From NCBI GenBank assembly GCA_037974665.1, contig CM075769.1, forward strand, positions 23,524,139 to 23,588,138: a stretch of DNA of 64,000 nt, given 5' to 3'. Below, piece after piece: positions 4,530 through 33,130 of this stretch. The notes under the pieces are model-generated. The model saw nothing but the letters and a program-made list of their open reading frames with translations, was not told the DNA's origin and did no database searches. Each line of letters starts with the position of its first letter. Within the stretch, counting starts at the first letter, position 1. This DNA comes from Ehretia macrophylla (taxonomy: Eukaryota; Streptophyta; Magnoliopsida; Boraginales; Ehretiaceae). The position numbers were made by a program, and so were the translations under genes.

Positions 4530-4582
4530 TACCCAGATCTGTTCGGTACATCAAGTAAGAATTTCGAGGGCAAAATTTCTTT

Positions 4583-4595
4583 AAGGGAGGGAGAA
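4583..4595 (+). other. G1 polypurine tract
   Basis: A 13-base purine run (AAGGGAGGGAGAA) lies immediately before the TGTGAAACCC start of the 3' LTR. This is the expected primer site for plus-strand cDNA synthesis. Confidence 0.9.
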
Positions 4596-6966
4596 TGTGA
4601 AACCCTACTTTTTCATCTTATCTCGTTTTGTGTGAATTAACCTGTCTATGTGCTATGTGACTTAGAATGTGGTAATTTTAATATCAATACTCCTAGAACA
4701 TGCTAAATGTGCATTCATGAAATTTTCATAAAAAACGGAGTCAGAAATTTTATCGCCTACTTTTAGTGAATAGTATTTTCGAAACACGTCCGCTAAAATT
4801 TTGAAACTGGTCTTTTTAACCCTTCTAGACCTAGACCACGGACTTTAATAGACATGTGTTTGATTAAAACGGTTTTAAAATCGGCTTAGCAATTTATTAG
4901 GGTTTTTTACACCGACTTTTACAAAAATCGAGTTTTAAGCCGACTCAGGTGAAATTGTTTGATTGTAAAACTTCTTGTCATCTAAAAATAACCTACTTGA
5001 GCTATCTTAGAAATTTCAATTTTGTTTTGAGCAAGGAGATAGCTAAAATGCATTTAAAAGACAAGAAAATGAATTAAAGGACTAAAATACTACTTTGACT
5101 TTGCATTTTATTTATTTGACCAAGCTTTTAAATACATATTGTCATCAACACACACTAAACACAACACAAAACACACTCAAAAAATACATAGGAGGCCGAG
5201 AGGAAGAAGAGAGAAAAAGAAAGAAAAAAACTCAAGCTTTTCAACCAATTTTTCAAAGAAAAACCTAGTTTTTGTCCGTAGAACTTCGTGCCGACTTGGA
5301 TTCTGCTTGTTGGGCACGCATTGCACGCATTCCTAGGCTTATATCGCATCAAAGGTGAGAGAAAAATTCTAGATCTCAAAAGTTGTCTTTTGCATTTTTG
5401 CGTATAAATGAAAATCAAACCATTAGAATTCTAATCTGATGTTAGATTATTGCTCCTTGCATGCTAGGGATCATTTAGCTGTAATACTACGAGTTTTTAT
5501 CGGTTGTAGCATAATTTTTATTTTTCGGGTATTTAAATTTGATTAATTTGTTCAATGTTGATTAAATTGAGTTGTGTTGATCAAAATCGATTGCCGTCGA
5601 TTTCTAAAAACTTGATAATTACGTGGTAGCGCTGTTGTAATGCCGAATTTTCAATTGCGTTGTCCGTGTGAAAGTCCGGAAAATTCAGCCTTGTCACCTT
5701 AGAGTTTTAGGGTTATCGGGCATGATTTGGAGGTGTTATGGTGGTTTTCCGAGGGGGCTAATGTAGTTGGTTGAGTGGATGAGTGATAGAAACTGATTTG
5801 GCGGTGTTTGGATTAGTAGAATGTAGGTTATGAATTTTTGAAGTTTAAGCTGTCTTTCTTTAAAATTTTGAACTATGCCATAGATGATGGGGTGGTGTTG
5901 GAGTGATCGAATGGTGAGTTGTTGATGGGTAAACTAGGGTTTAATTATGTATATAATGGATGTCTGGTTGGATGGCCTACTTTGTCATCTAACTTAGTTA
6001 TTTGTTGTCTAATTGATTATTGATGCTATTATTGATGAAAAGATGATTATTAATTGATGATTGATTGATTATTGATGATTATTATGGAGTCTTGGTATGT
6101 GTGTACCACATCTCGGGCAGCGTTGGGCTGTCGGGTTGAAAACGGCATGACTGCCAGAGGCTACCCCCAGCTCGCATGACGGAGGTATCATGGAGGGAGG
6201 GGTTACTGAGGTACCTCGGGTGCGTGAGTAATGGGGAGTTATAAGAAGATTGGTTGAGATCGTGATGGTGTTTGGAGCTACACCAACTAGAGTATCCTTT
6301 ATTGAATGGTTGTATAGTTATGTGATGATAATATTATTGATGTTGTGTGTTTTCTTGCTCAAAGGATTAGTTCCAAGGAGCTTAGTAAACCTTGCTCGAG
6401 ATCTATCAGATCCTCACTGGGCTTATTTTATATAAGCTCACTCTCTATTATTGCATGCTTACAGGTGTTGCAGAGCAAGACTACGAGTACGTGCCTCCTG
6501 AGGATGAAAATGTGCCTTTTGTGGATGAGTCTTATGTCCCTGAGTCTTACCCGTGATGCCATGTTGTTTACTATCATGTATATTAGCTTAATAGACTTTT
6601 AATTGCTTTGTAATTCTTATTGTATAAGATGCTGAAAAGATCATGAGTTAGTTTATACTATCTTAGCAGTCTTACTTTTGCCTTTGTTTAGATTGCTAGG
6701 CTAGTATTAATATGGGTTGTAATGTATATCAAAGTTTAAATGTTATGTTGGAACGGAGGCGTATAACTATGAACGATTGGTGGAATGAATGATTATTGTT
6801 TAATATGGTTGTGTTGTATGTTGTTATTTGAATTAAGGAGTTGTTGGATGTATGATGTTCTAATGAGGTTGGTTTAGAACCTCAGTATCCTAATTACTGT
6901 CGTTATACTGCCGAAATTCTGTTGTGTCCTGACTGATTATAGGTGGGGTCGAGTTGGGGCGTGACA
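4596..6966 (+). mobile_element. G1 3' long terminal repeat
   Basis: The LTR begins TGTGAAACCC right after the PPT and ends GGGGCGTGACA, with TG...CA ends; it is 2371 bp. A homologous solo LTR of the same family lies at 49,520-52,293. The two share the start, the block around 5,033-5,110, the GGATCCTCACTGGGCTTATT block near 6,408 and the last 60 bp. A likely promoter is the TTTAAATAC box near 5127, with a transcript start shortly after. The flanking host sequence is G0 gag; the first five bases after the LTR (CTCTA) should recur before the 5' LTR outside the window. No convincing gene lies in it. Confidence 0.9.
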
Positions 6967-7720
6967 CTCTAAGTCTGATGTGGTCGTTTACTGGGTGGAC
7001 TCGGTTCCCCAAACAGATCTGCTTTGCGTTTGTCATATCTGGTAGCTATCCTGACTGCTGCTACATAAGTGGGGTAATCCTGGGTAGACAGATTCAACGA
7101 AATATCGGGCCTCAGCCCCATAATAAACTTCTGGATCCTCTTACTCTCCGGTTGTACTAAGGCCGGCACATAATGGGACAAGCAAGTGAAAGCAGTGTCA
7201 CACTGATCAACTGTCATGTTGCCCTATTTCAAATTAATGAACTCTTGCTCTCGTCTTTCAATAGCTGTGTCAGTAATGAATTTCTCTTGAAAGTCTCTAA
7301 CAAACTCATCCCATGTCTGTGGTACTGCCTCAGCCTCCCATTTGGACTTTATGGTATGCCAACACTGCTCCGCATCTCCCTCGAGTAGAAACTCAGCGCA
7401 AGCAACCCTCCTCGCGTCAGTATACTCAAGGCCAGTAAGAATTTTCTCCACTTTATTCAGCCATTGCTCAGCCAACATATCATCGGGCTCTCCGAAGAAG
7501 CTAGATGAACCCCGATGCAAGAATTTCTTAAGGTAGTTACCACTACCGCCCATGTTCTACCTTGACCCTGACCCGGATTACCTGCGGGCACAAAACCTTC
7601 CTGCCTCTGTAATACCTGTGCAATTTGACCTATGGCAGCGGTCAACTGAGCATTAATAGTCTGTTGGTCTACTTCTTCTTCCCTAACATTCTGATTTCTG
7701 ATCTGACAGCAGGGCCCCAT
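6967..7720 (-). pseudogene. G0 gag (5' part, broken)
   Basis: Minus-strand Gag of the G2 family. The likely start is ATG at 7720-7718, giving MGPCCQIRNQ and a QQTINAQL segment. A one-base deletion near 7560 relative to G2 shifts the frame into GGSGNYLKKFLHRG and the capsid domain (7553-7224, with EQCWHTIKSKWEAE). A TAG at 7226-7224 interrupts it; G2 has CAG at the matching codon (24,835-24,837). The capsid region continues to FGEPSPPSKRP and stops at the G1 LTR boundary. It is non-functional. Confidence 0.88.
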
Positions 7721-8350
7721 TCCGAATAACTAGAATGCAAAGTATTATGACAAGCATATATATATATATAATTCCCAAGTAAATCACATAAGGAAAAATT
7801 CAAATAAGTCCACGTAAAATTACATATAAGGTCACACAAACATTTTATACATAAAAGATACAAATAAAAGACTTAGTCATACTTTTCATTCTAAATCTTC
7901 ACTTTATTCAAAAACACTTAAAAGACCATTCACATGAATTTCTCAAGGTAGTTACCAGTACTGCCCATGTTCCACCTTGACCCTGACCCGGATTACCTGC
8001 GGGCACAAAACCTCCCTGCCTCTGTAATACCTATGCAATTTGACCTTTGGCAGTGGTCAACTGAGCATTAACAGTCTGTTGGTCTACTACTTCTTCCCCG
8101 GCATTCTGATTTCTGATCTGACGTCGGGGCCCCATTCCGAATAACTAGAATGCAAAGTATTATGACAGGCATATATATATATATATAATTCGCAAGTAAA
8201 TCACATAAGGAGAAATTCAAATAAGTCCACGTAAAATTACATATAAGGTCACACAAATATTTTATACATAAAAGATACAAATAAAAGGCTTAGTCATACT
8301 TTTCATTCTAAACCTTCACTTTATTCAATAACACTTAAAAGACCATCACA
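7521..8350. repeat. Direct duplication (~415 bp) of gag start and leader in G0
   Basis: 7521-7935 and 7936-8350 are near-identical direct repeats. Each holds the rc of the GGSGNYL-coding stretch, the gag start, and a TA-rich leader with a short (TA)n at about 7757-7771 or 8171-8188. G2 has this region once (25,130-25,545), so the duplication arose in G0. The junction is at CACAT/GAATTTCTC. Confidence 0.85.
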
Positions 8351-8498
8351 TTTCTATTTCCATGCTAGTATGTTCTTTATCAAGTGAATCTTTCATTTAG
8401 CCAATCAAGGAAATATTTATTTCACGCAATTACATATTCACATAATATACCTCTACCCCACAGACCGAGAAACCTATCCTGGCTAATGCATTATACAA

Positions 8499-8510
8499 GC
8501 TCTGATACCA
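8499..8510 (-). other. G0 primer binding site (tRNA-iMet)
   Basis: The reverse complement is TGGTATCAGAGC, the common plant initiator-tRNA-Met primer site. It starts 7 bases after the LTR end. G2 has the same site at 25,690-25,701 with its first base changed. Confidence 0.9.
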
Positions 8511-8516
8511 CCTAAA

Positions 8517-8706
8517 TATGACGCCTCGACCCAACCCCACACTAAAAGTTAGGTCTGGACCCGACAAACGGACAGAGTCTCCTCTGTACCGTGGACATTT
8601 TGGAAACCTGAAAACATTCAATAATACCACAAATACCAACTAGAACTCTAATTCTAATCAAACCCAGCTTCAAGGCCATCCGAGCCTTAAGCAATACAAG
8701 GCAGTA
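8517..8706 (-). mobile_element. G0 5' LTR remnant (last 190 bp)
   Basis: It matches the end of the G2 5' LTR (25,708-25,897) with about ten differences by eye, up to the shared GGCAGTA. Past that point G2 continues as LTR, while here the sequence becomes block A. The remaining ~2.3 kb of the LTR is missing. Confidence 0.88.
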
Positions 8707-8957
8707 GAGAGTGAATAGTACAATTTTATTTATCTTGTTTTTATTATTTGTTAGGTGGTCTTGGTCAAAGATCATTGACTAGAAAAATCTTCCACCAACA
8801 TACACATACATGTCATACATATATGTCTTGCCAATTCAAATTGCAAGATAAAAAGTCTTGTGCAATTCTAGCCAAGTATTCAAAACTTCGTGGTTAAGAT
8901 AATAATGTGGCCAATTATGGTCCAATCATTTAACATATTTTATTTGCAAGACTAATT

Positions 8958-9038
<81 letters not shown>

Positions 9039-10660
9039 CATAATTATTTAATCTTCCAATTGTGTAAATAAATAATTAAGCTAATCACCATTAGTTTCAA
9101 TTATGAAAATAACTTTTTTGTATTTGCACGTTGGCCCTAACATTTAATCAAAATTATACATTGTCCCCATAATTAACAATTAATTTCATATTAGCCCTCA
9201 CTAACTATAAATTGTCATTTACACTGTTGTTAACTCCTTAACAATACAAAAAAAATAAAATATAATTGTTAACACTTTAACAATTCAATAGACAACTTTC
9301 AAGCATAATAGGAAAACCATTCACAAGTGCTTTATTGTGTGTGACTTTCTAGATTCACTACCATATAGCAATGAGGAAACGTTGAACACTTTCAATGTTA
9401 ATCGAACTTTTCGATTTGTTTAGAGAGCATATCCCGTCATTCTCTAAACACCGTCAAAGTTCTTGAGTGACGCCTAACAACTAACGTATCAAGACAGTTT
9501 ATAAGGCAATGAAGTCTAATTCAAGTGAATCTATTTATAGTCATCGATTACCGTGCAATCCAATCCTTTCATTAAATGTTCTGTTGAGCAAGAACCATGA
9601 TACGATTAAGTTCGTAGACTCGATACTGTACATAGATCCAAATGGTGAAATGAGAAATGACATCCATGGAAAACCCCCTTTCCATCCTCATGCTTTGGCC
9701 AAATACTTCTTCATTCAACAACGATGCTTAGATCGCATAGGACATCACCTCTCGCTGGAGGTTAATGGATTCTATCTTGACAACTACATGTCAGTCACTA
9801 TACTGGACAAATATTACTACAAGAGGTCGTAACCTGTCTTGATTAACGTAGAAAAGTATTGTCTTATATATATATACATATATAGATAAGCAAGAGATAA
9901 GCAAATTATACCTCTTGAAGCAAACTAGTAGAGACGAAGGTAGATACAAGGTGATAGACCAAATCTCCCACAAATGCAAGAGGTCTAGGTTGTCCACACA
10001 AACATGCAAGAGATTCCTTCACTACTAAGTATTTGTGCTAGCAACTTAGATGATTATTTAAGCTAAAACAAAGTTAAAAGATGTAAGAAAAATTTTCTCT
10101 TCTCTTTCTATGAGATGGCCGAAAATGCCAAGAGAAAAGAGAGAAAATTGTTTCTTGATTTTTGTTTTTCTAACTCTACAAAGTGTTATGCATGCGTATC
10201 TATTTATAGAGCTTAGTTAGTGGGTATATATAACCTAGGCAAAGTCCACTAACTAACTTAGGGGAATTCCATGGCAATCTCCAATAACTAACTTCGTGGA
10301 ATTCCATGGCAATCTCCACTAACTAAGTTAGTAGAGTTTTATGACAAAAAACCACTAACTCAAGCCTTGCAAAAAAAATCTAGCCATGCAATATATGATA
10401 TTGGAGAAATTAGTGGAGAAAGATGAGTTGGGAAAAACCTAAACCACATTTAGTGCTTTTCATCTCTCTCATATAATTAATCCACTAATGCATTTGTTTA
10501 ATTAACCTAATCACTATTAGATTAATTTATGTAAACTTTTCTATATTTACACATTGGCCCCAATACTTTAAATATTTATACTTTTGCCCCATTAACTTTT
10601 AATGGTCAATCATAACATTGTTAACTCGTTAATGCCCTTGAATTTGTTTCAAGCTTATTA
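8707..10660. repeat. H repeat, copy A left of CACTA
   Basis: Part of a tandem repeat of about 1.35 kb whose class I cannot name. The tail of one unit (8707-9290, with CATTGTCCCCATAATTAAC) is followed by a unit beginning near TTTATTGTGTGTGAC (9332). That unit contains CATCCATGGAAAACCCC (9661), GCATAGGACATC (9735) and CACATTGGCCCC (10,546). After the CACTA it resumes at 19,431. It reads like retroelement leader/LTR DNA. An open frame at 9509-9832 is cut by a stop in copy B, so I do not call a gene. Confidence 0.6.
8958..9038. repeat. Palindromic microsatellite (AC)n(AT)n(GT)n
   Basis: About 11 AC units, 14 AT units and 13 GT units in a row form an ~80-bp near-perfect inverted repeat able to extrude as a hairpin. 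Block B has pure (AT)n at the matching place (32,202-32,271). Confidence 0.95.
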
Positions 10661-11199
10661 CAGTACAAGAAAACAGCGCTCGGGCGACGGAATTGGGTGA
10701 CAGAGTTTTTTCATAGTAAATTAGCTACTGCTAGGCTATGGATTTGCTACGGGCAACAAATTTCGTTGCCCATCCGTAGCCAACTTAGGCCCTATTGAAA
10801 TGGCGACAAAAATTTGTTACGGATTGGCTACGGACAATAATTTTAATTAATAAAAAATAATATTCTGTAGCCTAGTCGTGGCAAATTTTCTACGGATTAT
10901 TTAATTAATTCGGCAAAAAAATTCATAAAAACTTCTGTAGCTATGCAATGGCCAAATAGCTAAGGATTGGCTACGAACTATATATTATTCAAAAAATGTT
11001 TTAAAAAAATAAAGCGAAGTAGCCATGCCGTGACAAATTTGCTACGGCAAAAATACAAATATTTTAACTAAATAGTAAAAAATAAAATAACAAATACCGT
11101 AGCCAAACCATAGTCCCTAGCTACGGATGGCCTACGGACTTCTCTACATCTGTAGCCCATCCGTAGCAAATAGACTATTGCTAGGCTACGGCCTTCAAC

Positions 11200-14100
11200 A
11201 TAAAAATGAGGTTTATCATTTTTAATTTGAATTATGTAATTTTGATTGCACCTACAATGTAGTAAACTTCACTTGAATTGTAAGTTTTTCAAATAAAAAT
11301 AAACTTGGTCCGTATTTCATTAATGTACGTACTTTTATAAAGAAATCTCATTGGAAATTTATAGCCGTTTAAATCGAACTTATCATGTTCTCACTTAACA
11401 TTGCATTAATGTTAATAAACGTTCAATCTATGAGTCAAAAAACTCTCACATTATGTCTAAACTTCATAAACAAAAAAAATATAAAGATATTAACACGTTT
11501 TAATACGTTGTTCTACCTAATAACAAGTTAGAATATATATTATTAGTTGTCCGTAGCCCATCCCTAGTCCCTAGTTATGGATGGGCTACGGAATTCGACC
11601 CTTCCGTAGCCTTGGCTAGTGCTAGGCTATGGACTTCTTTCTTTCGTAGCCAATCTGTAGCCATTTGGCTACTGCTAGGCTACGGACTTTAACAAAAAAA
11701 CAAGGTTTATCACTTTTAATTTGAATTATGGAATTTTGATTGCACTTACAACGTAGTAAACTTCACTTGAGTTACAATTTTTTCAAATAAAAATAAACTT
11801 AGTCCGTATTTCAAACGTGCGTACTTTTATAGAAAAATCTCATAGGAAATCAATAGTTGTTTAAATTGAACTTATCATGTTTTCACTTAATATTGTGTTA
11901 ATGTTAATAAACATTCAATCTAGGAGTCGAAAAACTCCTACATTGTGTCTAAACTTCATAAATAAGAGAAATCTGAAGATATTAACACGTTTTTAATACG
12001 TTGTTCCTACCTATTAGTTGTTTGTAGCCCATTCGTAATCACAAGCTACAGATAGGCTACGGAATTCTTTTTTCCATAGCCCATCTGTAGCTATTTGGCT
12101 ATTGCTAGGCTAAAGACTTCAACAAAAAAACGTGGTTTATCACTTTTAAGTTGAATTATGGAATTTTAATTGCACCTACAATGTAGTAAACTTTACTTGA
12201 GTTGCAAGTTTTTCAAATAAAAATAAACTTGGTCCGTATTTTATTAACATGCGTATTTTTGTAGAGAAATCTCATAAGAAATCAATTGTCGTTTAAATTA
12301 AATTTATCATGTTTTCACTTAACATTGCATAAACGTTCAATCTAGGAGTCGAAAAACTCTCACATTGTGTCTAAACTTCATAAACAAGAGAAATATGATG
12401 ATATTAACATGTTTTAATACGTTGTTCCTACCTATTAACAAGTTAAAATACATATTATTAGTTGTTCGTAGCCCATTCGTAGTCCCTAGCTACGGATGAG
12501 CTACGGAATTCGACCTTTCCGTAATTGGCTACTACTAGGCTACGAAATTCAACAAAAAAATGAACTTTTTCACTTTTAATTTAAATTATGGAATTTTGAT
12601 TGCACCTACAGTGTAGTAAACTTCACTTGACTTGCAAGTTTTTCAAAGAAAAATAAACTTGGTCCGTATTTCATTAACGTGCGTACTTTTATAGAGAAAT
12701 CGGGTTAAAACCATTTTAATCCCTAAGGTTTGTCCTAAATACCTAATTGGTCCCTGAGGTGTGTAAAAAGCCCAATTTAGTCCCCATCGTTAGTTGTCTG
12801 TGGTTAGAATTAACCATTTAGAGGGTAGTAATGTCATTTTTCATTTAAAAAAAAAAAGCTGAAATGATTACCCATGGAATGGATAGGGGAGTGCCACGTC
12901 AGCACTCCTCTTTTTACCTAGAAAAGTGGGTAGGACTTGACTTTTTTTTTTTTGGGTCCTTATTCTAATATATATATATATATTCTAGGCAGACGTGAGT
13001 GCTTCTTCGCATTTATATCATTCCGACTAGTTTTTTTGCCTCTGAAATTGCTTAAAAAATTAAAAGGTTAGTAGGGTTTTTTCTTTAGTTTTTTTCCAAA
13101 CAATTTTAATAATAGTGTAGTATATTATGTTATGGTTTACAGTTTATTTTAGACATATTATGTTTGATTATGTTGTTTATAGCTTTGCATATATGATATT
13201 TTAGTGTTAGTTTTTTATAGTTGAAGGGAAAACGCTATCAGCTTAAAATATAAAATTGGGCCACCACAATCAGTTCTTGAACTTCTTCTAGAAAATTCAG
13301 ATTTTGGTATTAACTTGCGAAATAAATGAAAGCAAAGATTCTTTGTTCAAAGTATGTTTTATAATAGTGAATATGTTTATGAAGTGAAAGATATTAATAT
13401 TGGTAAGAACTTCCAATGTTACTGATCAAGAGATTTTGATTTTTGTTTTTTGTTTTTTTTGGCATGCATAATAGGTACCAGATGTGAAAATGAAAGAAGC
13501 AAAGGTTTGGGAGGCATATTATACAGCGTCCGTGGGAATTTTTTTTTTTTTTTTGGTTGGCCATGCATGGCAGACCAAAAGGTATGGCAGGTGAAATAGC
13601 CATTGGAAACCCAACAACTATTATTTTATTGTATTTTATTGTATTTTATTTTAACACATAAGCAAGAATTTAAAAGGCAGGGGCATGAGCTTCATTTTTC
13701 ACGGTCAATAGGTTGACCGTTAACATGGAACTAAAAGCAGGGACTAAATTGGGCTTTTTGCACACCTCAGGGACCAAGTTGGTCTTTAAGGCAAACCTCA
13801 GGGACTAAAATGGTTTTAACCCTAGAGAAATCTCATAAGAAATCAATAGTCATTTAAATCGAACTTATTATGTTTTCACTTAACATTGCGTTAATGTTAA
13901 TAAACGTTCAATCTAGGAGTCGAAAAACTCTCACATTCTGTCTAAACTTCATAAACAAGAAAATATGAAGATATTAACACGTTTTAATACGTTGTTCCTA
14001 CCTATTAACAAGTTAAAATACATATTATTAGTTGTCTGTAGCCCATCCGTAATCCCTAGCTACAGATGGGCTACGGAATTCAACAAAACAAAGAGGTTTA

Positions 14101-15410
14101 TCATTTTTAATTTAAAACATGGAATTTTGGTTGCACCTACAACGTAGTAAACTTCACTTGAGTTGCAAGTTTTTCAAAGAAAAATAAACTTGGTCCGTAT
14201 TTCATTAACGTACATACTTTTATAGAGAAATATCATAGGTATAAATAGTTGTTTACTTATCATGTTCTCACTTAACATTACGATAATGTTAATAAACGTT
14301 CAATCTAGGAGTCGAAAAATTCTCACATTTTGTCTAAACTTAATAAACATGAAAAATATGAAGATATTAATACATTTTAATATGTTGTTCCTACCTATTA
14401 ACAAGTTAAAATACATATTATTAGTTGTCCGTAGCCCATCCGTAGTCCTTAGCTACGAATGGGCGGCAGAATTCGACCCTTCCGTAGCCTATCCATAGCC
14501 ATTTGGCCACCGCTAGGCTACGGACTTTAAAAAAAATGAGGTTTATCAGTTTTAATTTGAATTATGGAATTTTGATTATACCTACAATGTAGTAAACTTT
14601 AATTGAGTTGCAAGTTTTTCAAATAAAAATAAACTTGGTCTGTATTTCATTAACGTGTGTACTTTTATAGAGAAATCTCATAGGAAATCAATAGTCGTTT
14701 AAATCGAACTTATCATGTTCTCACTTAACATTGCGTTAATGTTAATAAACGTTCAATCTAGGGGTCCAAAAACTCTCACATTGTGTCTAAACTTCATAAA
14801 CAAGAAAATTATAAAGATATTAACACGTTTTAATACGTTGTTTCTACCTATTAACAAGTTAGAATTCATACTATTAGTATTTCGCAGCCCATCCATAGCC
14901 AATTACTACGAATGGGCTATGAACTTCTTTTTTCCGTAGCCCATCCGTAGCCCATCCATAGCCAATTGCTACGGATAGGCTTCGGACTTTCACAAAAAAA
15001 ATGAGGATTATCAATTTTAAATTAAATTATGGAATTTTGACTGCACCTACAACGTAGTAAACTTCATTTGAGTTGCAAGTTTTTAAAATAAAAATAAATT
15101 TGGTCTGTATTTCATTAGCGTGCGTACTTTTATAGAGAAATCTCATAGGAAATCAATAGTCGTTTAAATCGAACTTATCATGTCCTCATTTAACATTGTA
15201 TTAATGTTAATAAACGCTCAATTTACGGGTCTAAAAACTCTTACATTGTGTCGAAACTTCATAAATAAGAAAAATATGAAGATATTAACACTTTTTAATA
15301 CGTTGTTTCTACCTATTAATAAGTTAGAATACATACTATTAATGGTCCATAGCCCATCCATAGCCAATGGCCACGGATGAACTACGGACGAGCTATAGGC
15401 TATGAATGGG
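11200..15410. repeat. Tandem 400-490 bp units inside CACTA copy A (7 units)
   Basis: Each unit contains the landmark TTGCACCTACAACGTAGTAAA; it or a close variant starts near 11,247, 11,741, 12,171, 12,601, 14,131, 14,576 and 15,042. A conserved AT-rich stretch with AACGTTCAATCTAGGAGTCG follows. Each unit ends in an inverted pair of GTAGCCCATCCGTAG motifs around a short TCCCTAG-like loop. The MULE-like element interrupts the fourth unit. Short open frames such as those starting MFSLNI recur because the units recur; I regard them as non-coding. Confidence 0.88.
12702..13822. mobile_element. MULE-like non-autonomous element, copy A
   Basis: The terminal inverted repeats are about 90 bp, with outer ends GGGTTAAAACC and GGTTTTAACCC. 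They include TCCCTGAGGT and CCCAATTTAG blocks seen inverted at 13,735-13,822. The target duplication TAGAGAAATC lies at 12,692-12,701 and 13,823-13,832, and the split flanks rejoin into a normal tandem unit. The long TIR and 10-bp duplication point to a Mutator-like class. There is no transposase ORF; the interior is AT-rich with homopolymer runs. Confidence 0.82.
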
Positions 15411-15684
15411 CTATGGACTTTTATGTATCTGCAACAGCCAATCTGTAGCCGAATAATAAAACAAGAAAAAAAATGAAATATGTTTGAAAGGTATATATAA
15501 CAAATTATATACAAACTTAAGTTAAATTAAACTAAACCCATCATGTATATAATAAAGTACATATAAATATTTTTTTAAAAAAATAACTAAATAAAATAAG
15601 CCTATAAATATTGCAAAAAAATAAATTTGGGATGTTTGAGAAAGGATAATTTTTTTAAAAAAAAAAAAAAAATCAATCTTCGCC

Positions 15685-15723
15685 CGCCGGAGGGCTTACC
15701 GGAAAGACCCCGGCCCTCCGGCG
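15685..15723. other. GC-rich hairpin in CACTA, copy A
   Basis: Arms CGCCGGAGGGC (15,685-15,695) and GCCCTCCGGCG (15,713-15,723) pair perfectly around a 17-base loop, in otherwise A/T-homopolymer DNA. Block B has the same hairpin with one pair changed on both arms. Confidence 0.75.
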
Positions 15724-15907
15724 AAATTTTTATTTTTTATTTTTTTTTAATTTTTTGTGGCTACGCAAACCTGTAGTCATTCCGTCGCCCTCGTTTATTT
15801 TTTCACCTACAACTAAGAAATGTTTTTTAAGTTTTTTCATTTCCCTCTACTTTTTTTTCCCTCTTTTCTCTTTCTTTAGGAAATTTTCTTTCTTTTCTCT
15901 CTCTCTA

Positions 15908-16060
15908 AGGCACTACCACCAACCACCACCACCACCATGGCCATCATCACCACTACAAAAGGCACCATTACTACCACCAACCACTACCAAGGGCACCACT
16001 AATACCACCAACACCACCAAGGGTACCACCACTACCACCAAGGGCACCATCACCATGACC
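15908..16060. repeat. ACC-rich tract 1 in CACTA copy A
   Basis: Degenerate repeats of CACCACCAAGGGCACC type follow a pyrimidine-rich leader and are followed by CTATAGGTAAATAG, which resembles an exon end and splice donor. The frame reading Pro/Thr here differs in block B because of indels, so protein coding is not supported. Similar tracts recur at 17,375-17,660, so this part looks internally duplicated. Confidence 0.6.
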
Positions 16061-16329
16061 ACCATCTCATTCTCTCTTTTCTATAGGTAAATAGTTTAGG
16101 GTTTATATTTTTCCTCTTTTTTGTCTACTATACACATATGTATATATATGTGTGTGTATATATATATGTATGTGTGTATGAATTTTAAATTTTTATTTGT
16201 TCAATCTATAGTTTTTGTACTTTATTTTATGTTTATTTCTAATTTTATTTAGTGATATTTGACATAAATATTTGGTATTATATTTGGCATAAATATTGTA
16301 TGAATTAAAAATGTTGTATTGTAGTCATA

Positions 16330-17374
16330 TTTGATTGTGCAATATGAACTGTTATTTGGTAGTGCAATATACTACTTAAATATTTTGGGTCTTTCGTGTT
16401 AAATTGGGCTATGAATTCACATGTTAGGTTGTTTATTATGAAGTAAATGTGAAATACATGTGTAGAATGTTGTTGAAAGTTAGAGACTTTATGTGGGTGT
16501 TATTGTTTGATATAGTTGTATAATATGTTGAATATATGTTTGATAAAATGCTTGAGTGAGTGTTTTTAGCCTACATACATTGCATACAACATATATACAT
16601 GATACATGCTTGCAAAATAAGGCCTAAAGTTGGAATCTTGTAAATTTCCTTGGATTTCAAAAGGAAATGTGACTTGTTTATGTTCTTAGTTATTTAGATT
16701 GCTAAAAATGATTACCAAGTGTACTTAATGGTGTTCTCGTGCAAGTTAATTGCTAACAGAAAATGGGTAAAATGTGTGTGAATGCTATAAGTGGTAGCCT
16801 ACTTTGCTATGACTAGATTTGTGAAACGATTGAATTATTGGTTGTGAATTCTTTATGAGTTATATTGAATTAAATGATTGGATTATGATGTTTTGCAAGT
16901 TTTATAGTTCATTTTGCAACAAAGTTCAATTATGCATATGTTAGATCATAGCTTTTGACTTATGGAAATCAAAGAGTTTAGTTGCAAGTTTATGAATCAC
17001 TTTGGAAATGTAACTAAAGCATACTTAGCTTGTCTTTTAACTTAGAAAGTCTTTGTTTTATGGATAGTAATTCATCTTGAGAACTTGTGACTAAAGACAG
17101 GTCTAGCTAATACTGTGAGACTTAGAAGCTTTCTACTACATGAACTTTAAATTACTTGGACTTGTAAATGTTGCTAGGCTTATATAGACCTATTATGAAA
17201 AAATGTTGTGTTTAGCATGCTATGCATAAGCAAAGCTTCAAGAAGGTGTTCTTGTTGTTGGCATTGAGTATAACTGTACAAGTGTTGAAATGCCCGTAAT
17301 TAAGGGGAGACTCTGTCCGATTATTGTCGCGTTCGGACTTGACTTCTAAGAAAGGGTTGGGTCGGGGCATGACA
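16330..17374 (+). mobile_element. LTR-like insertion inside CACTA copy A (5' edge unresolved)
   Basis: The right part resembles the ends of the other chromovirus LTRs here: GGGGAGACTCTGTCCG (17,303), then GGGTTGGGTCGGGGCATGACA ending at 17,374. It separates two similar ACC-rich and CTATAGG(T/C)AAATAG stretches. The 5' edge is not clear by eye; 16,330 is a guess. Block B carries it too (to 40,651), so the insertion predates the A/B duplication. Confidence 0.5.
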
Positions 17375-17660
17375 CCATCAACACCAAGGACACCACCAAG
17401 GGCATCACTAACACCATCAAAGGTAGTACAATATACTAGTTTATATTTGTGTGTGTGTATATATATATAATCTATATTTTATTTGTAATTTATTGGTTTT
17501 TTCATTTATTTATTTAATTTTTATTCGTCATCACTACCAAGGGCACCACCAAAGATATCACCAAGAGTACTACCCCTATCACCACTATCAAGGGCATCAT
17601 CAGCACTACCAATGGCATCATCACCACCACCAAGAGTACTACCATCATATTCATATCTCT
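17375..17660. repeat. ACC-rich tract 2 in CACTA copy A
   Basis: The continuation after the LTR-like insertion: further CACCACCAAGGGCATCAC repeats, with CTATCTATAGGCAAATAG at the end. It is read here as non-coding. In the frame at 17,451 it gives a His/Gln/Tyr-rich string with no recognisable domain. Confidence 0.55.
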
Positions 17661-18625
17661 ATCTATAGGCAAATAGTTTAGAGTTGAATATGTACCATGC
17701 TTATAGTTCAATATGTATATATGTTAATGTTGATAATATGTATATATTAATTTTGATGTAGCGAATATGAAATGTTATTTGATTAGTGGTGCTATTCTTT
17801 TGTTATATGTGAAAATAATGAAATCATGTGCTAATTTAGAGTTGAAATAATAGAGTTGTGCTAATTGAGAATTGAAATAACAGAGTCATGCTAATTTAGA
17901 ATTGAAATAATGGAATCACGTGCTTAAGTGGAATTCTTTTGTTAAGTGATTTAGGATTGGCTTTGTTGAGATTTAAAGAAAAATTGGAGAATGATTTATT
18001 CGGGTCTTTATCAAATTGGAAGGATGATGTTGGATAAGATAATCCTTATTCATATGGAGTTGAGTGTTGTGGTATTGCAAGTACTATGTCCCTGTGTTTT
18101 CAAGCTTTTCTAAATGCATACTCGGTGAAGGGAACGTGACTGGACATTTTTCTTATATGTTTGACGATAGAATTACCCCTGTTAAGGACTGTGGAGATCT
18201 GGCTTACAATGGTTCAAAATGTGGTATAATTTCTCTTTTCTATATGAATGCATCAATTTTCTCCAACTTGTATCCCCTTTTATGCAAATGGCATTGGTGA
18301 TACGAATAATTATATATTAGAAGGGTAGATAATAAGGTAATTTCATACAAATGACACTTCCATACGCAAAATATTACTTAGGAGTTCAATTACATTTCTT
18401 GCTAAAAACCTTGGACTGATTCCAAGTTTCTTATTAACTATTTTCTCTTCTAACTCATGAGCTTTTGGTGTCTTTTTAATACTATTTCACTGGTTAGATT
18501 CTGTCGGGAGAAGAAATTTGGCAAATATATATATATATATGAGGAATTTAATAAATTAAACTACTCTAAATATCTTCAAGCAATATTTGTGTGTTATTTA
18601 TGCATATTTATTTGTGGTGTAATAG

Positions 18626-18712
18626 GAGATGACTTTAGAAGAGCTTGACATAGTACAGAAAGAGAAAAGGAAAGCTTTGCAGGCATTAAAATCATATAAG
18701 CGAGATCATTAG
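18626..18712 (+). pseudogene. Captured HABP4/PAI-RBP1 (RGGA-like) exon fragment, copy A
   Basis: After a splice-acceptor-like GTGTAATAG, the frame GAG-ATG-ACT reads EMTLEELDIVQKEKRKALQA followed by LKS, then stops at TAG (18,710). The M-T-L-E-E ... E-K-R-K-A-L-Q-A-L-K pattern is a conserved stretch of the plant hyaluronan/mRNA-binding (HABP4_PAI-RBP1) family, typified by Arabidopsis RGGA. About 28 codons survive. It sits near the right end of the CACTA, upstream of the subterminal repeats, and is most simply a host-gene fragment picked up by the transposon. The copy in block B is closer to the family consensus. No function is expected. Confidence 0.7.
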
Positions 18713-19430
18713 AAGACAATAGTAGATCATTTTGGCTTTTTTGTAAATTAATATTATTTTTGTATTAGTTTTTTTTTTGTAAATATTATAAATCTATTGT
18801 AAATATTAAAATTTTTTTAAATAATAATTTGTAATTTTAATTTTTTGTGTTAATATAATTTTTTTTAAAATTAAATAATTAATTAGCAACAGAATAGCTA
18901 CGGCAATGTGCCGACAAAAGGCTACGGATATTTGGCAACAATTGGCTACCACACCAATCCGTAGCCATGGGCGATGATCGATTTATGATCGAAACGGCTT
19001 CGGCTTTGCTATGGACGTTAATAATTAATAAAAAAAATAAAAAATTTAGTTGGCTACAGATGGGCTACGGATTGGCTACCGAATGGGTGGCTACCGAAAT
19101 TCTACGGATATTAATCCGTAGCCATAGACGACGACCGATTTACAACCAAAACGACTACGGATTTGCTACGGACGTTAATAATTGATAAAAAAAATTCAAA
19201 ATTTTAGTTGGCTACGGATGGGTTACGACTATTTTGCTACGGAAGTTATAAAAAATAAATGCAAATTAATTTCCAAAATTGACTACGGATAGGCTACGGA
19301 ATATCAATTTGGCTATGAGTCTTTTTACTATAGACGGGATTTTGTAGCCTAGCGGTCGCCCGTCCCACTTTGGCTACTGCTAGGCTACGAATTTTGGTCG
19401 TCGCCTCAGCCTATTCTTCTTGTAGTGTTA

Positions 19431-19710
19431 AAAACTCCTCATTAATGCTTTATTGTGTGTAAGTCTCTAGATTCATCGTCGTATAGCAATGAGAGAAAAT
19501 TAAACACCTTTTAATTTATTTTGAGAATGTCTCCAGCATTCTCGAAATACCCTTACGTTCTAGGTTGACGTCTAGCAACATGCCCAAACAATTTATACGG
19601 TAATAAAGTCCAATTCTTGTGAATCTATTTATTGTCGCAAATTAACATGCAATCCAATCCTTCCATTAATATATCCCGATCGAATGAGGACGATGAAATG
19701 ATTAAGTCCA
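19431..19710. repeat. H repeat, copy A right of CACTA
   Basis: It resumes the H repeat after the CACTA target duplication (GCTTTATTGTGTGTAAG at 19,450; ATGCAATCCAATCCTTCCATT at 19,650). It runs to the solo-LTR insertion point at GTCCA (19,706-19,710). Confidence 0.7.
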
Positions 19711-20641
19711 TGATGTGATGATATTTGTACCACTGCATTTGCCTACAATTGCATCTTAACTTATAGAATAAATACAATACTTAATACACTTTTGATGCAA
19801 TGTAGGTTGATCCTTAAAACTGAAGAAATCGGTCTCAAAAGGACTAATTTGTAAGTCAAGAAGTGAAGAACGTGGAAACCCAAGCATCGGTGGAAGAATG
19901 AAGCTCACAAAGTTAGAATTTGGCCAAAACTAGCGCGTGATCAGACTTGGAACGTTGAAAATATCACAAAAACGCTTCAGTCAAAGTCAAAATTGGAAAA
20001 AGTCAAAATTGCAGAAAGGCGCTCGAGCGTGCCATCAACAGTGCTCGAGCGCCCCTCAGAAATTCTCGCACTCGAACGCGCTTGCTGGAGGCTTCCACAC
20101 GTACAGATTGGTCTACGTGGACCGCCAAATGCCTCTGATTGGTCCACATGGATGCCAAGTGGAATGATTTAATTGGACCGCACCAGACGCGCGCTCGAGC
20201 GCCCTGCACAGTATGTTCTACAATGTTCCGAAAAGGCCACGCAGCGTACTCCCATTCGATGAAAGGAGGCGAGCTCGAGCGCTCATGCTCGGCGTTCGAG
20301 CGTGCCTCTATTTTCTGGCCCTATAAATACCCCCTAACCCCAACCGAAAATGATATAGAAAATTAATTTAGGATTTTATTTTAATTGTTTTTAATTGCTT
20401 TTTTTAGTGTTAGTTTAGTTTAAATATGGTAGTATAAATAGTTAGTAGTTGGGGAAAAATACGGCAGAGGTAATACCCGAATTTCTGAGGCATAGGAAAA
20501 TGAGGAAATCTCGTAGCTGTGCTCGGGACTCCGACCTCGGACCTCGACTTTATTTATGGGAGAGCATCTCTTTAATTTGTTTTATATTTGAATGTCATTA
20601 TAATGCCTGTGTTTATTCGGGATTTTGATTATATATTAATG
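19711..20641 (+). mobile_element. Truncated copy of the S3 solo LTR (first ~930 bp)
   Basis: It starts TGATGTGATGATATTTG just after GTCCA and aligns with 43,048-43,992 of block B. It contains CGCTCGAGCG-type motifs near 20,019, 20,043, 20,191 and 20,273 and a TATA box at 20,322. It is cut at TTAATG, where the G2 LTR begins, so the last ~740 bp present in B are missing. Confidence 0.85.
20322..20329 (+). promoter_or_regulatory. TATA box of the S3 LTR, copy A
   Basis: TATAAATA in the context GGCCCTATAAATACCCCC lies downstream of the CTCGAGCG motif cluster. It is conserved in block B at 43,679-43,686. An LTR transcript would be expected to start about 30 bases further on. Confidence 0.65.
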
Positions 20642-20710
20642 CACAGTGAAAATGCGCAAATAGTGGATGCAACAGTTAAAAAGTGTACGGTGAAGTTCTT
20701 GGGCATCACA
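20637..20710 (-). mobile_element. G2 3' LTR remnant (first 74 bp)
   Basis: The reverse complement begins TGTGATGCCCAAGAAC right after the PPT. It matches the start of the G2 5' LTR (28,205 downward) as far as GCGCATTTTCACTGTGCATTA. It then switches to block A, with TAATG (20,637-20,641) common to both sides. Confidence 0.9.
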
Positions 20711-20723
20711 CCCTCTCCTTCTT
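20711..20723 (-). other. G2 polypurine tract
   Basis: The reverse complement AAGAAGGAGAGGG directly precedes the LTR start TGTGATGCCC, the expected position for a plus-strand primer. Confidence 0.88.
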
Positions 20724-20744
20724 AAACTAATTGCACCCACACAA

Positions 20745-21990
20745 TTCTTACATGATTCGGCGAACAACTCTGGATAGCGATCTCACATCTGATCATCTCT
20801 TTCCCATGTGGTATCCTGTAACCTGTGATGATCCCACAGAATCTTAACCATCATAATGCTTTTAGTTCTCAATTCTCGAACCTTTTGGTCTACAATCCGG
20901 AGATGTTTTTCTGCATAAGTCAAAGTCTCACTGGTCTCTAGAGGCTCTGGCTCAAGAATATGAAAAGGATCTGGCTAATACTTCCGAAGCATAGAAACAT
21001 GGAACACATCATGAATTCTGCCTAAACTAGGAGGTAAAGCTAATTTGTAAGCCAATGCACCAACTTTCTCTGTGATTTCAAACGGTCCCACAAATCTCGG
21101 ACTGAGTTTACCTACTTTATCATGCCGAATCAAACCTTTCTGAGGAGAGATTTTCATAAATACTCGATCACCCAAGGCAAACTCCAGATCTCGATGGCGT
21201 CTATCTACATAACTCTTTTACCGACTCTGTGCTGTAAACATTCTCTTTTTGATAAGCTATATATTATCAATCATTCTGTTCATCTCTGGCAATAGAGTAG
21301 GGTCAATATTCTTCATCTCACCAACCTCATTCCAATAAAGATGAGATCTGCACTTACGCCCATAAAGTGCCTCATACGACGCCATACCAATAGTAGCTTG
21401 ATAACTATTGTTATAGGTGAACTCTGCAAGCAGCAAATACCTTTCCCAACTCTTACCGAAGTCCATAATACAAGCCCGCAACATATCCTTGAGTATTAGG
21501 ATAGTTCTCTCAGATTGACCGTCCGTTTGAAGGTGATAAGAAGTACTGAAGCTCAACATTGTGCCCAAATCTTTTTGAATCTTCTGCCAGAACTGAGATG
21601 TGAATATGAGATCTCTGTTCGACACAATACTCTTTGGAATCCCATGAAGTTTGACAATATTCTCAACATATAATTCAGCTAGCTTGTTAAGAGAATCTAT
21701 TTTCTTTGTGGCAATAAAGTTAGAAGTTTTGGTCAGTCTATCAACAACAACCCAAACTAAATCATTACCCTTTGAAGATCTCGCCAAGTCTGACACGAAA
21801 TCCATAGTAATATGATCCTATTTCCAGTCGGGAATAGCCAAAGGCTGCAACAACCCTGCAAGTCTCTGATGCTCAGCTTTAACTTTTTGACATGTAAGAC
21901 ATTTGGAAACATAGTTAGCAATCTCTCTCTTCATGTTGTTCCACCAGAAGTTCTGTTTCAAATCTCTATACATTTTTGTACTACCTGGAT
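20745..21990 (-). pseudogene. G2 integrase and chromodomain (broken)
   Basis: The minus-strand integrase core reads MDFVSDLARSSKGND (21,805 downward), SNRDLIFTSQFW and TDGQSERTILILKDMLRAC, giving the D, D, E residues. The zinc-binding CQKVK-type region lies just upstream (about 21,990-21,830). A stop separates the core (end 21,257) from the [12 protein letters not shown] segment (21,175-20,975). A TAG at about 20,973 interrupts the run into the chromodomain-like end (MVKILWDHH, TTWERDDQM, near 20,850-20,780), which has a further TGA. It has the same domain order as G1, but is non-functional. Confidence 0.9.
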
Positions 21991-22057
21991 GAATAGTATA
22001 TCTAGAACTGTGTGCATCGGCAAGTATTTCTTTCTTTAAAGCTGGCTCATTCGAAAA

Positions 22058-24110
22058 TCAGATTCTACCTTTGAATTTGAGAATGCCATCATCATGCAGT
22101 TTGAAATCCGACTCTCCCGCTTTAGACTTTTCTAGGATTTTCAACAATTGAGGATCAGTCTGTTGAGCTTCTCTAATCCTGGATAATAATAGAGATTGAA
22201 TCTGCAAACTTGCAAATTGAATACCAGAATTTGAAGTTTTGGGCTTCCATAAAAATAGTTCTTCCATGAATTCCCAATTTTTGATAATCAGACTTACAAC
22301 GGTAGCCTTTTGGCTTAAAGCATCAGCAACAATATTAGCCTTAATAGTGCAGTTATAATCCTCAAGTAATTCCAGCCAACGCCTCTGCCTCATGTTCAAC
22401 TCTTTTTGTGAAAACAGATATTTCAGACTCTTATGATCTGTAAAGATTTCAAATTTGTTGCCCCAGAGATAATGACGTCATTTCTTTAGTGCAAAGATAA
22501 TAGCCGCAAGCTCAAGATCGTGCGTCGGATAGGTGAGTCATAAGGTTTCAGTTTCCTGGAGGCATATACAATAACTTTTCCATTCTGCATCAATACACAA
22601 CCCAAACCCTCCTTAGAAGCATCACTGTAAATCACTAGGTTATCAGTACCCTCAGGTAGAGCAAGAATAGGACCCATGGTTAACCTTTTCTTCAATTCTT
22701 AGAAGCTAGCCTCACACTTCTCATTCCAATCAAACATAGTTTTCTTCTGAGTAAATTGAGTCAAAGGTCCGACAATTTTAAGGAAATCCTTGACAAATCT
22801 TCTATAATAATCTGTTAAACCCAGAAAACTACGGATCTCTGCAACAGTCTCAGGCCGTTTCCAAGCTAATACAACCTCAATCTTCGCTGGATCAACAAAA
22901 TTACCATCCTGTGAGATAATATGACCGAGAAAAGCAACTTGCCTTAACCAGAACTCACATTTGTTGAATTTTGCAAACAATTTATGCTCTTGAAGAGTTT
23001 GTAATACAATCCTCAAATGTTGTTCATGTTTAGCCTCTGATTTTGAATATACAAGAATATCGTCAATAAAAATAACCACAAATTGATCCAGATACAGACG
23101 GAATACCCTCTGCATTAGGTCCATAAATACGGTAGGAGCATTAGTCAAGTGAAACAACAGAACAACAAACTCATAATGGCCATAACGAGTTCTGAAAGTA
23201 GTCTTAGGTACATCATCTTTCTTGATCTTCAACTGATAATAACCCTGCTTCAGATCAAATTTAGAAAATACCCTGGCACCTTGCAACTGATCAAGTAACT
23301 CTTCAATTAGAGACAATGGATATTTGTTTTTAACAGTTACTGATTGAGACCCCGATAATCAATATATAAATGAAGAGATCCATCCTTCTTTTTAACAAAT
23401 AAGACTGGTGCACCCCAGGGCGAAGAACTCGACTGAATGAATCCCTTCTCAAGTAAGCCCTGCAACTGAACTTTCAATTCCTGCAATTCAAGCGAAGCCA
23501 TTCAATATGGAGTCCTAGAGATAGGTGTAGTCCCTGGTAATAAGTAAATCACAAACTCTATCTCTCTATCAGGCAACAAACCTGGTAATTCCTCAGGAAA
23601 AACCCCCGAAAACTCACTCACAATTGGCACCTCATTTAGTTTTAGCTTATCCGTAGGTTGATTAATCAAATAGGCCAAATAAGTATCACAACCTTTACTC
23701 AGCATTTTAGTAGCCTTAATAGAAGAAATTATACGAGTACCCGTAGATTTATGACTACCGACAATCTCAATTATGGGTTGATTAGGCATTTCTAGATTCA
23801 CAATTTTTCTTCTACAATCTAGATAAGCATAATATTTACCCAACCAGTCCATACCCAAAATTATTTCAAAGTTCTTAAAAAGGCAAGATAATCGAATCAA
23901 CAGGAAGGACTCGACCCCCAATACACAATTCACAGGCTTTACACACATATTTAGTGAAAATTTTAGTGCCCATAGGTGAACCTATCTCAATCTTATTAGG
24001 CAATTTATCAATTTTCAATGCAGAAGATTGTGCGCACATAGGTGTAATAAATGAGTGTGTAGCCCCGGAATCAATTAAAACTGTAACTGATTTATTATTG
24101 AGAAGAAAAG
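22058..24110 (-). pseudogene. G2 protease, RT and RNase H (broken)
   Basis: On the minus strand, the protease active-site triplet Asp-Ser-Gly lies at 24,072-24,064. A frameshift follows before the ILGMDWLGKY segment (23,948-23,502). The RT shows [23 protein letters not shown] and the catalytic FIDD at 23,070-23,059. RNase H shows [11 protein letters not shown] (near 22,640) and ADALSQKA (near 22,320). Frame changes near 23,500-23,320, 22,697 and 22,490-22,400 plus stops disrupt it. The domain order matches G1 but sequence and LTRs place it in a separate subfamily. Confidence 0.9.
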
Positions 24111-24165
24111 TACCTTCAACAACTGCAGTCGTATCAGGAAGCTCTTCTACATCTAAGGCAAATAC

Positions 24166-25330
24166 TCAGGCCTGCCCCCATGGTGCTGATGCTGCAGCTG
24201 GTGCCTTGGTCTGAGTACCCTGTCCATATGTCTGACCTCTGGTGTTCTTGAATTTTAAGCAGTCCTTAACCCTGTGCTGGTCACTCCTGCAACCTGTACA
24301 CCTGTTCAATTTCCTCCAGCAATTCTCCTCAGTATGGCTCTGACGATAACAGAAGTCGCACTGCTGGTGACGTCTTGCAACAGTGCCTCCCATAGGAGCT
24401 CTGTAAGAAGAGGTAGCTGAACTACCCTATTGAGATCGTGCTATAGTTGGATGAAACTGCCCCTGATTCTGACTCTGAGCTAGTCGTGCCTGAGTCTAAG
24501 TAGGCCCGGTGTAACTCTTAGTCTGCGTCAGCTGTTGACTCTGAACAACTGAAACAGCCTGCCTCTAAAATCCCTGACTCTGAATCTGATGTGGTCGTTT
24601 AATAGGCTGACTCGGTTCCCCAAACAGGTCTGCTTTGCGTTTCTCATATCTGGCAGCTATCCTGACTGCTACTGCATAAGTGGGGTAATCCTAGGTAGAT
24701 AGATTCAACGAAATATCGAGCTTCAGCCCCATAATAAACTTCTGGATCCTCTTACTCTCCTGTTGTACTAAGGCTGGCACATAACGGGACAAGCGAGTGA
24801 AAGTAGTGTCATACTGATCAACTGTTATGTTGCCCTGTTTCAAATTAATAAACTCTTGCTCTCGTCTTTCAATAGCTGTCTCAGTAATGAATTTCTCTTG
24901 AAACTCTCTAACAAACTCATCACATGTCCGCGGTACTGCCTCAGCCTCCCATTTGGACTTTACGGTATGCCACCACTGCTCCGCATCTCTCTCGAGCAGA
25001 AACTCAACGCAAGTAACCCTCCTCGCGTCAGTATACTCAAGGCAGTAAGAATTTTCTCCACTTTATTCAACCATTACTCAGCCAACATATCATCGGGCTC
25101 TCCAAAGAAGCTAGACGGACCGCGATGCAAGAATTTCTCAAGGTAGTTACCACTACCGCCCTCCGTTCCACCTTGGCCCTGACTCGGATTACCTGTGGGC
25201 ACAAAACCTCCTTGCCTCTGCAATACCTATGCAATTTGACCTATGGCAACGGTCAATTGAGCATTAATAGTCTGTTGGTCTACTTCTTCCTCCCCGGCAT
25301 TCTGATTTTTGGTCTGATGGCGGGGCCCTA
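24166..25330 (-). pseudogene. G2 gag (broken)
   Basis: The minus-strand Gag counterpart of G0 gag has the capsid region at about 25,140-24,600 and two zinc knuckles at about 24,370-24,250 (CDFCYRQSHTEENC and CTGCRSDQHRVKDC). The start codon seen in G0 (ATGGGGCCC) is ATAGGGCCC here (near 25,330). There are TAA/TAG-type stops in the capsid part and a one-base loss at 25,040-25,050 relative to G0. It retains CAG at 24,837-24,835, where G0 has TAG. Confidence 0.88.
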
Positions 25331-25689
25331 TTCCGAATAACTAGAATGCAAAGTATTATGACAGGCATATATATATAATTTGCAAGTAAATCAGATAAGG
25401 ATAAATTCAAAAAAGTCCACATAAAATTACATATAAGGTCACACAAACATTTTATACATAAAAGATACAAATAAAACACTTAGTCATACTTTTCATTCTA
25501 AATCTTCACTTTATTCAATAATACTTAAAAGACCATTCACATTTCTATTTCCATGCCAGCATGTTCTTTATCAAGTCAATCTTTCATTTCGCCAATCAAG
25601 GAAACATTTATTTCACGCAATTACACATTCACATAATAGACCTCTGCCTCACAGACCGAGAAACCTATCCCAGCTCATGCATTATACAA

Positions 25690-25701
25690 GCTCTGATACC
25701 T
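25690..25701 (-). other. G2 primer binding site (tRNA-iMet)
   Basis: The reverse complement AGGTATCAGAGC differs by one base from the canonical TGGTATCAGAGC seen in G0. It starts 6 bases after the LTR end. Confidence 0.85.
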
Positions 25702-25707
25702 CCTAAA

Positions 25708-28205: not shown

Positions 28206-29161
28206 CGAGGCACGGTAGCTTGTGCCTTCAATGGGCGGCATTGGGCTTGCCAGTTATTGGTTGCACGCCTCCGCATCATATTCCCTCACTCACTTGGTCA
28301 TTGAAGACCTTGGGGTGTTGGGTCGTAGGTTATCGGGGTACATTCGGAGTACCCTAGCGGGAGTGATAAGGGGATGGCGACAAGCGTTTAAGCATGAAAG
28401 TGTTCGTGGAAACAGAATGAAGAGCGGTTGCAACAAGTGAAATCGTATCCTTTTCTAAAATGTTTATATAATGATAGTATCCTATCTATAAGTGATTATA
28501 CAGTGATTTATCACTTGTTTGAAGGCCTCGAGTTTCTTGTTATTGTCTATTGCTTGCTTAGTGTATACTCGTTAATTGATTCATGTTTTAATGCTTCCGT
28601 GTCACTTGTAATGTTCAATGCCTCTTAATATTACTTATCACTAATACATGGTACTTGACCTATGTGCATTGCATCATGAAAGGACATTTCAAAACCTCTC
28701 TGTACTTGCTCCCCCCTCACTGAGCACGTGGTTGCTCACCTATTTTCTCTAACAATTTCAAGTTACGTGAGGTGAACTTTGAAGTGTTCTGCTAGTTGTT
28801 GGGCCTATTTTGCATCAAAGTTCCATTTTTAGCTCGTGATTGGACAATGGTTGTATGTTTTTAACATCAAGAGAATAATGTGAATTTATGGATTATTGTG
28901 GAAATATAATAAATGCATGCCTAGGTTAGTTTGGCTTGTAATGCTAATGGACTTGAGTTGTAAAATGTAAAGAGATGTTGAACCTACCATGCATATTTCA
29001 AATGTATTGTTGTGAAATGCTTGTGGTTGAGCTTGATTGAACAGGTTTTGGATTGCCCAAAATACAAAGGAAACTCCGTCCGTTTTTCCTCGTTTCTTGC
29101 CTTGGGGTTGGATCAGGTTGTTACTAACGGACTTGATTCTGAGAGGGATCGAGTCGTTTCA
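28206..29161 (+). mobile_element. 3' part of a plus-strand LTR related to G2 and the outer solo LTR
   Basis: It contains ATGGGCGGCATTGGGCTTGCC (28,231), GGGTGTTGGGTCGTAGG (28,314), GAAACTCCGTCCG (29,069) and ends GAGTCGTTTCA at 29,161. It aligns with 53,230-54,072. The 5' part is missing at the G2 boundary, consistent with G2 having inserted into this LTR; the other half would then lie left of the window. Confidence 0.75.
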
Positions 29162-30893: not shown

Positions 30894-30945
30894 GGTTGGC
30901 TCAATTTGTGGGAAACATGTTTTAATCCCATTGAGAAAACCCACT

Positions 30946-32199: not shown

Positions 32200-32201
<2 letters not shown>

Positions 32202-32266
<65 letters not shown>

Positions 32267-32271
32267 ACATA
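32202..32271. repeat. (AT)n microsatellite in block B
   Basis: About 30 AT units at the place where block A has the AC-AT-GT palindrome. Confidence 0.95.

Positions 32272-33092: not shown

Positions 33093-33094
<2 letters not shown>

Positions 33095-33128: not shown

Positions 33129-33130
<2 letters not shown>

Follow-up and report, generated by a model that had tools for sequence, protein, structure and literature searches.

The stretch considered here, hereafter the window, comprises 64,000 nucleotides of Ehretia macrophylla contig CM075769.1 (positions 23,524,139 to 23,588,138 of the forward strand; assembly GCA_037974665.1). It contains two internal regions of a long terminal repeat (LTR) retrotransposon, G0 and G2, separated by an 11.9-kb block (block A) that closely resembles another block (block B) farther to the right. 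Coordinates are window positions, negative numbers lying to the left of the window; flanks of 60 kb on the left and 40 kb on the right were also examined, and the genome searched for matches comprised 20 contigs with 1.58 billion bases, each search scoring about 40 candidates. The features on which the argument rests are collected in Table 1.

Table 1. Features of the rearranged locus, in window coordinates, with the joints named after the interpretation favoured in the text.
Feature	Position	Strand	Remarks
Rest of G0 and complete LTR1	-9150 to -2790		Left of the window
G1, younger nested LTR retrotransposon inside G0	1-6966	+	Begins 2789 bases left of the window
G0 internal region, gag and primer-binding-site side (putative copy 1 of G2)	6967-8516	-	
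Copy-1 LTR, last 190 bp	8517-8706	-	
Putative deletion joint	8706		1-bp overlap between the LTR (190 bp before its end) and the repeat Y point equal to 31949
Block A (putative copy 1 of B)	8706-20641	+	Partial repeat Y, CACTA-type element, more Y, partial repeat X
CACTA-type element in A	10661-19427		TTA on both sides; site as in B; left end CAGTA
Putative head-to-tail joint of tandem duplication	20637-20641		5-bp microhomology TAATG
Copy-2 3' LTR, first 74 bp	20637-20710	-	Equivalent to -6745 to -6672 in LTR1
G2 internal region	20711-25707	-	Protease, reverse transcriptase, integrase
LTR3, complete 5' LTR	25708-28205	-	2498 bp; then CGAGG at 28206-28210
Spacer	28206-31948		In copy 2 only
Segment without counterpart in copy 1	25898-31949		6052 bp
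Block B, apparent original copy	31949-43992	+	Both edges within dispersed repeats extending past them
CACTA-type element in B	33905-42741		About 440-bp internal tandem repeats; TTA on both sides; right end TAGGG

Block A is bordered on the left by the tail of an LTR, followed by the primer-binding site (PBS) and gag side of G0, and on the right by the head of an LTR, followed by G2 and the complete LTR3. PBS-like and polypurine-tract-like stretches adjoin the LTR pieces. The Pfam matches of G2 follow the order protease, reverse transcriptase and integrase (the last below the curated cut-off), which is the order of Ty3/gypsy elements. The initial annotation had described a 12-kb block with the last 190 bp of an LTR on one side and the first 74 bp of an LTR from the same family on the other, about 2.2 kb of the middle LTR being lost; alignment to LTR3 confirmed the arrangement, and 2234 of the 2498 bp were mapped as missing. 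The 3' internal part of G0 lies outside the window (-6671 to -2793) and matches G2 at 20711-24577, and LTR1 (-9150 to -6672), beyond it, matches LTR3. The whole structure is flanked by the 5-bp target duplication CGAGG, found left of LTR1 and right of LTR3. Because it is shared by the two outer sides, G0 and G2 derive from one insertion whose interior was duplicated, as implied by the tandem view already taken of them, and their origin as two unrelated insertions is ruled out.

Blocks A and B align in two pieces, 8706-12915 with 31949-36167 (92.8% identity) and 12968-20641 with 36282-43992 (91.2%); the intervening 52 bp in A and 114 bp in B remained unaligned. The earlier description of A as a copy of B stands. 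B is a composite in which repeat Y, starting at about 31520, is followed by the CACTA-type element, more Y, and repeat X at 43048-44733. Neither end of the block coincides with the end of an element: among the rows listed for 31500-32500, 31 of 64 are other matches running through the left edge in one alignment at 66-90% identity, and 39 of the 41 listed for 43500-44500 run through the right edge. Since its edges fall inside dispersed repeats that are continuous elsewhere, the sequence comparison identifies B as the original and A as the copy, truncated at both ends.

For the nearest relative of A, the copies compared were, besides B, 10 of Y, 11 of X and 2 other places carrying the CACTA-type element. 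The Y part of A is 94% identical to B over 1155 bp, none of the 10 others exceeding 84% across 300 bp or more; its CACTA-type element is 92% identical to that of B over 3.7 kb, against 87-88% over 2 kb or more at the two other places; and its X part is 88% identical to B over 929 bp, whereas none of the 11 others exceeds 82% across 900 bp or more. In the reverse direction, A was the best of the 39 other matches listed for the query 39700-40700 of B (96%, against at most 94%). Judged by these identities, B is the closest relative of A in this set of copies. The CACTA-type element, 8.8 kb long, occupies the same site in both blocks, with TTA on either side in each, so that A did not arrive by transposition; as neither edge of A or B is an element end, the edges indicate that A arose through the copying of local DNA.

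CACTA transposons have CACTA termini and generate a 3-bp target duplication, and both features were found in the element of each block, with one end mutated in each. No transposase match was obtained among the few open frames scanned, and the element is probably non-autonomous; protein scans of open frames from B and the spacer yielded nothing above a curated cut-off. The family is present in at least 38 places besides A and B at 91-94% identity (40 scored matches to 39700-40700), and two copies fetched from elsewhere also carry repeats of about 440 bp.

The pieces on the two sides are collinear and on the same strand, the left gag - LTR tail - A matching the right gag - LTR - spacer - B, as expected of copies in a tandem duplication. 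At the ends of the presumed unit, LTR1 extends to the left of position 74 of the LTR and B extends to the right within repeat X. Copy 1 is incomplete, lacking the 6052-bp segment, whose deletion has to be supposed. At the right joint, the end of B and the LTR overlap by the five bases TAATG, an overlap attained by 0.7% of random breakpoint pairs. Searches with 200 bp around each joint found no further copy of either: the joint at 20641 was crossed by none of the 39 other matches listed (30 end at base 101, in repeat X, and 9 begin at base 97, in the LTR), and that at 8706 by none of 39 (37 lying in the LTR part and 2 in the B part). Comparison of the sequences flanking the head-to-tail joint revealed no similarity, and those flanking the 8706 joint had in common just 11 bp, a match at chance level situated away from the joint. 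With no similarity beyond the short overlaps, homologous recombination at the joints is ruled out.

Taken together, these data make it likely that the locus was shaped by a 23.35-kb tandem duplication and a 6.05-kb deletion in the left copy, produced in one event or two. This explanation is favoured because it uses only the two joints that exist, and because it accounts for the order and orientation of all the pieces. The succession of steps that we infer would begin with a gypsy-type LTR retrotransposon inserting at the locus, giving the outer CGAGG, and with an ancestral arrangement like that of the right copy, that is, LTR1 - internal region - LTR3 - spacer - B. A head-to-tail duplication would then have copied about 23.35 kb (20641-43992), running from a point 74 bp into the 3' LTR as far as the end of B, within repeat X. 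The 5-bp microhomology at the new joint, between 43992 and 20641, points to end joining or template switching rather than homologous recombination. The left copy would at that stage have read LTR head - internal region - LTR - spacer - A, passing directly into LTR head - G2. Later or in the same event, it would have lost 6052 bp, made up of most of the 5' LTR, the spacer and the beginning of Y, a deletion that would have fused 190 bp of LTR to A with 1 bp of homology. G1 would have inserted afterwards into the left copy.

If the unit was duplicated as a whole, its parts should be of the same age. Divergence was counted without the second copy of a 415-bp duplication in G0 and without the stretch around the A-B alignment gap (267 bp in A, 328 bp in B). 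Transversions amounted to 92 of 4986 sites (1.85%) between G0 and G2, 220 of 11543 (1.91%) between A and B, and 36 of 2470 between LTR1 and LTR3, with Kimura distances excluding CG/CHG sites of 0.050, 0.044 and 0.045, respectively. The ratio of A-B to G0-G2 was 1.03 for transversions (95% interval 0.81-1.36) and 0.89 for the non-CG/CHG distance (0.73-1.10). For LTR1-LTR3 over A-B, two comparisons similar in CG content, it was 1.06 for all sites (0.80-1.38) and 0.77 for transversions (0.51-1.05). The comparison of A-B with G0-G2 divergence that the initial annotation had proposed thus gave agreement within error on transversions and non-CG sites, and a lower A-B value when all sites were counted.

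The LTR pieces were aligned as had also been suggested. The tail (8517-8705, 189 sites) has 10 differences to LTR3 and 14 to LTR1, and so may be slightly closer to LTR3, as the duplication would have it, although the signal is weak. The head (20642-20710) has 5 differences to LTR3 over 69 sites and 5 to LTR1 over 68 sites, plus 2 indels in the latter comparison. A ready-made LTR array makes the same predictions for both pieces, which decide for neither explanation. When tail sites were polarised with three of the six outgroup copies tried (three minus-strand copies were not included), they proved almost star-like, with one possible change shared by the middle and right LTRs, indicating that insertion and duplication were close in time.

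Several observations weigh against a duplication followed by a deletion. The 6-kb deletion is itself inferred, no intermediate having been found, and the 1-bp overlap at 8706 is at chance level, being reached by 47-48% of random pairs. Over all sites, the ratio of A-B to G0-G2 falls to 0.81 (0.68-0.95), so that one of the three same-age measures along the unit does not fit, which could mean that A is younger than the split between G0 and G2. CG content differs between the two comparisons, CG/CHG sites making up 15% in G0/G2 and 9% in A-B, and this higher share can explain the gap, if not with certainty. Divergence between A and B is also uneven, the non-CG distance ranging from 0.029 to 0.069 in 750-site windows. 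The LTR head should have been closer to LTR1; the differences are instead equal in number, and LTR3 is favoured by the indels as well as by one additional site. In addition, partial copies elsewhere tie with B as relatives of A, at 92.3% over 1613 bp for the CACTA-type element and 87.7% over 375 bp for repeat X.

The most serious competitor is the explanation advanced by the initial annotation as the simplest. A tandem array LTR-internal-LTR-internal-LTR would have formed first, by LTR recombination or from tandem cDNA, and a break in its middle LTR would have lost 2.2 kb and been filled with a 12-kb copy of B. Several features of the locus agree with it: the single CGAGG outside the whole array, a donor that is nearby, a loss at the target, joint overlaps of 5 bp and 1 bp (the second at chance level), an all-sites divergence of A-B below that of G0-G2, and tail sites that are nearly star-like with one possible change shared by the middle and right LTRs. 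Tandem LTR arrays with outer target duplications are moreover reported to be common in plants (PMC11899658). However, such a history requires one extra joint that is not seen, that of array formation; the same strand and order as on the donor side would be luck; the transversion age of A-B equals that of G0-G2; and the internal shared LTR is without most of its length. The captured inserts cited here are also far shorter than 11.9 kb (PMC2671141, PMC3289645), the maximum being 619 bp (PMC2671141). The history as a whole is accordingly given a low probability, and it is similarly doubtful that template switching during a single break repair brought a copy of nearly 12 kb of neighbouring DNA into an array LTR. 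What remains of the earlier proposal is the donor role of B, whose edges are continuous elsewhere; filling of the lost LTR is not the simplest account, since duplication of 20641-43992 with a 6.05-kb deletion needs no unseen third joint.

A variant lying inside the favoured explanation is that duplication and deletion arose together in a single complex replication or repair event, with a pair of template switches that both generated the duplication and passed over the 6 kb, or else that a circle carrying 20641-43992 was excised and recombined back. It predicts the same joints, overlaps and end product, and the ages are alike on two of three measures; nothing, however, ties the two joints to one moment, and deletions of some kilobases are commonplace in plant repeats, leaving this variant possible but the less probable form. 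An assembly error or false haplotype duplication could be suspected because both breakpoints lie in many-copy repeats. A and B nevertheless differ at 695 of 11543 sites and by 43 gap events, which we judge too much for two alleles in most plants, and G1 and the 415-bp duplication are private to the left copy, so that an artefact is very improbable. Least credible of all, with almost no weight left to it, is the idea that a single 12-kb mobile element inserted twice, independently, giving A and B. Although B consists largely of dispersed repeats, neither edge is an element end, the two blocks share the Y/CACTA-type/X composite with the CACTA-type element at the same site, LTR sequence is missing at the target, A is not flanked by a target repeat, and no third copy with the same edges stood among the matches listed, none of the 39 others for each joint crossing it. 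Transposition of block A is ruled out on these grounds, in agreement with the earlier opinion that A is no ordinary transposon insertion.

The left copy has also changed on its own. G1 interrupts G0, with the target duplication CTCTA at 6967-6971, and is not present at the corresponding place in G2; its LTRs differ at 73 of 2371 sites (3.1%). The G1 LTR is 70-78% like 49519-52322. The 415-bp tandem duplication (7518-8351) is private to G0, and its copies differ from each other at 25 of 417 sites and each from G2 at 33 of 413-414; being closer to each other than to G2, they represent a second, younger local duplication. The left and right outer flanks correspond, in unchanged order, to portions of a related repeat (52618-54075), and the retrotransposon therefore probably sits in an older repeat. 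A second local cluster (-42946 to -13202) holds direct and inverted copies of 0.2-5 kb each that are 92-97% alike. Near the right end of the window, an open frame of 213 amino acids at 60005-60646 has an internal 42-bp tandem repeat and no Pfam match at E up to 0.1, and 61357-61790 forms a hairpin-like inverted repeat with tandem sub-repeats.

For rice, PMC4812662 puts the share of copy-number variants due to non-homologous recombination at 53%, against 44% for mobile elements and 0.5% for homologous recombination. The present copies resemble the rice segmental duplications described there in being joined without long homology, and differ in that a breakpoint falls within an LTR and 6 kb is gone from the left copy, giving the appearance of a broken LTR array. 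With the tandem LTR-retrotransposon structures of PMC11899658, the locus shares an outer target duplication common to two internal regions of one gypsy-type family; here, no intact middle LTR exists and the duplicated unit extends 15.8 kb past the LTR of the element. The complex elements that PMC1950507 attributes to template switching during reverse transcription likewise link two internal regions through the same position of an LTR, whereas here the unit includes non-element DNA (the CACTA-type element and repeats), unexpected in a retrotransposition product. For captured inserts, PMC2671141 gives lengths of up to 619 bp in humans; in Arabidopsis, the two inserts cited from PMC3289645 measure 328 and 534 bp, with filler of 1-36 bp. 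Both studies relied on PCR or a pipeline possibly blind to long inserts. Block A resembles the captured inserts in having a nearby donor on the same chromosome, and stands apart from them at 11.9 kb. Were it nonetheless a filler, it would be a break-repair copy far longer than the templated fillers cited here from PMC2671141 and PMC3289645.

In summary, the rearrangement, as most simply read, is of an ordinary kind for plant genomes. When one end of a tandem duplication falls in an LTR and a deletion is added, the result can mimic a tandem LTR array whose middle has been replaced by filler, and surveys counting LTR arrays or long fillers should first test for a larger duplicated unit.

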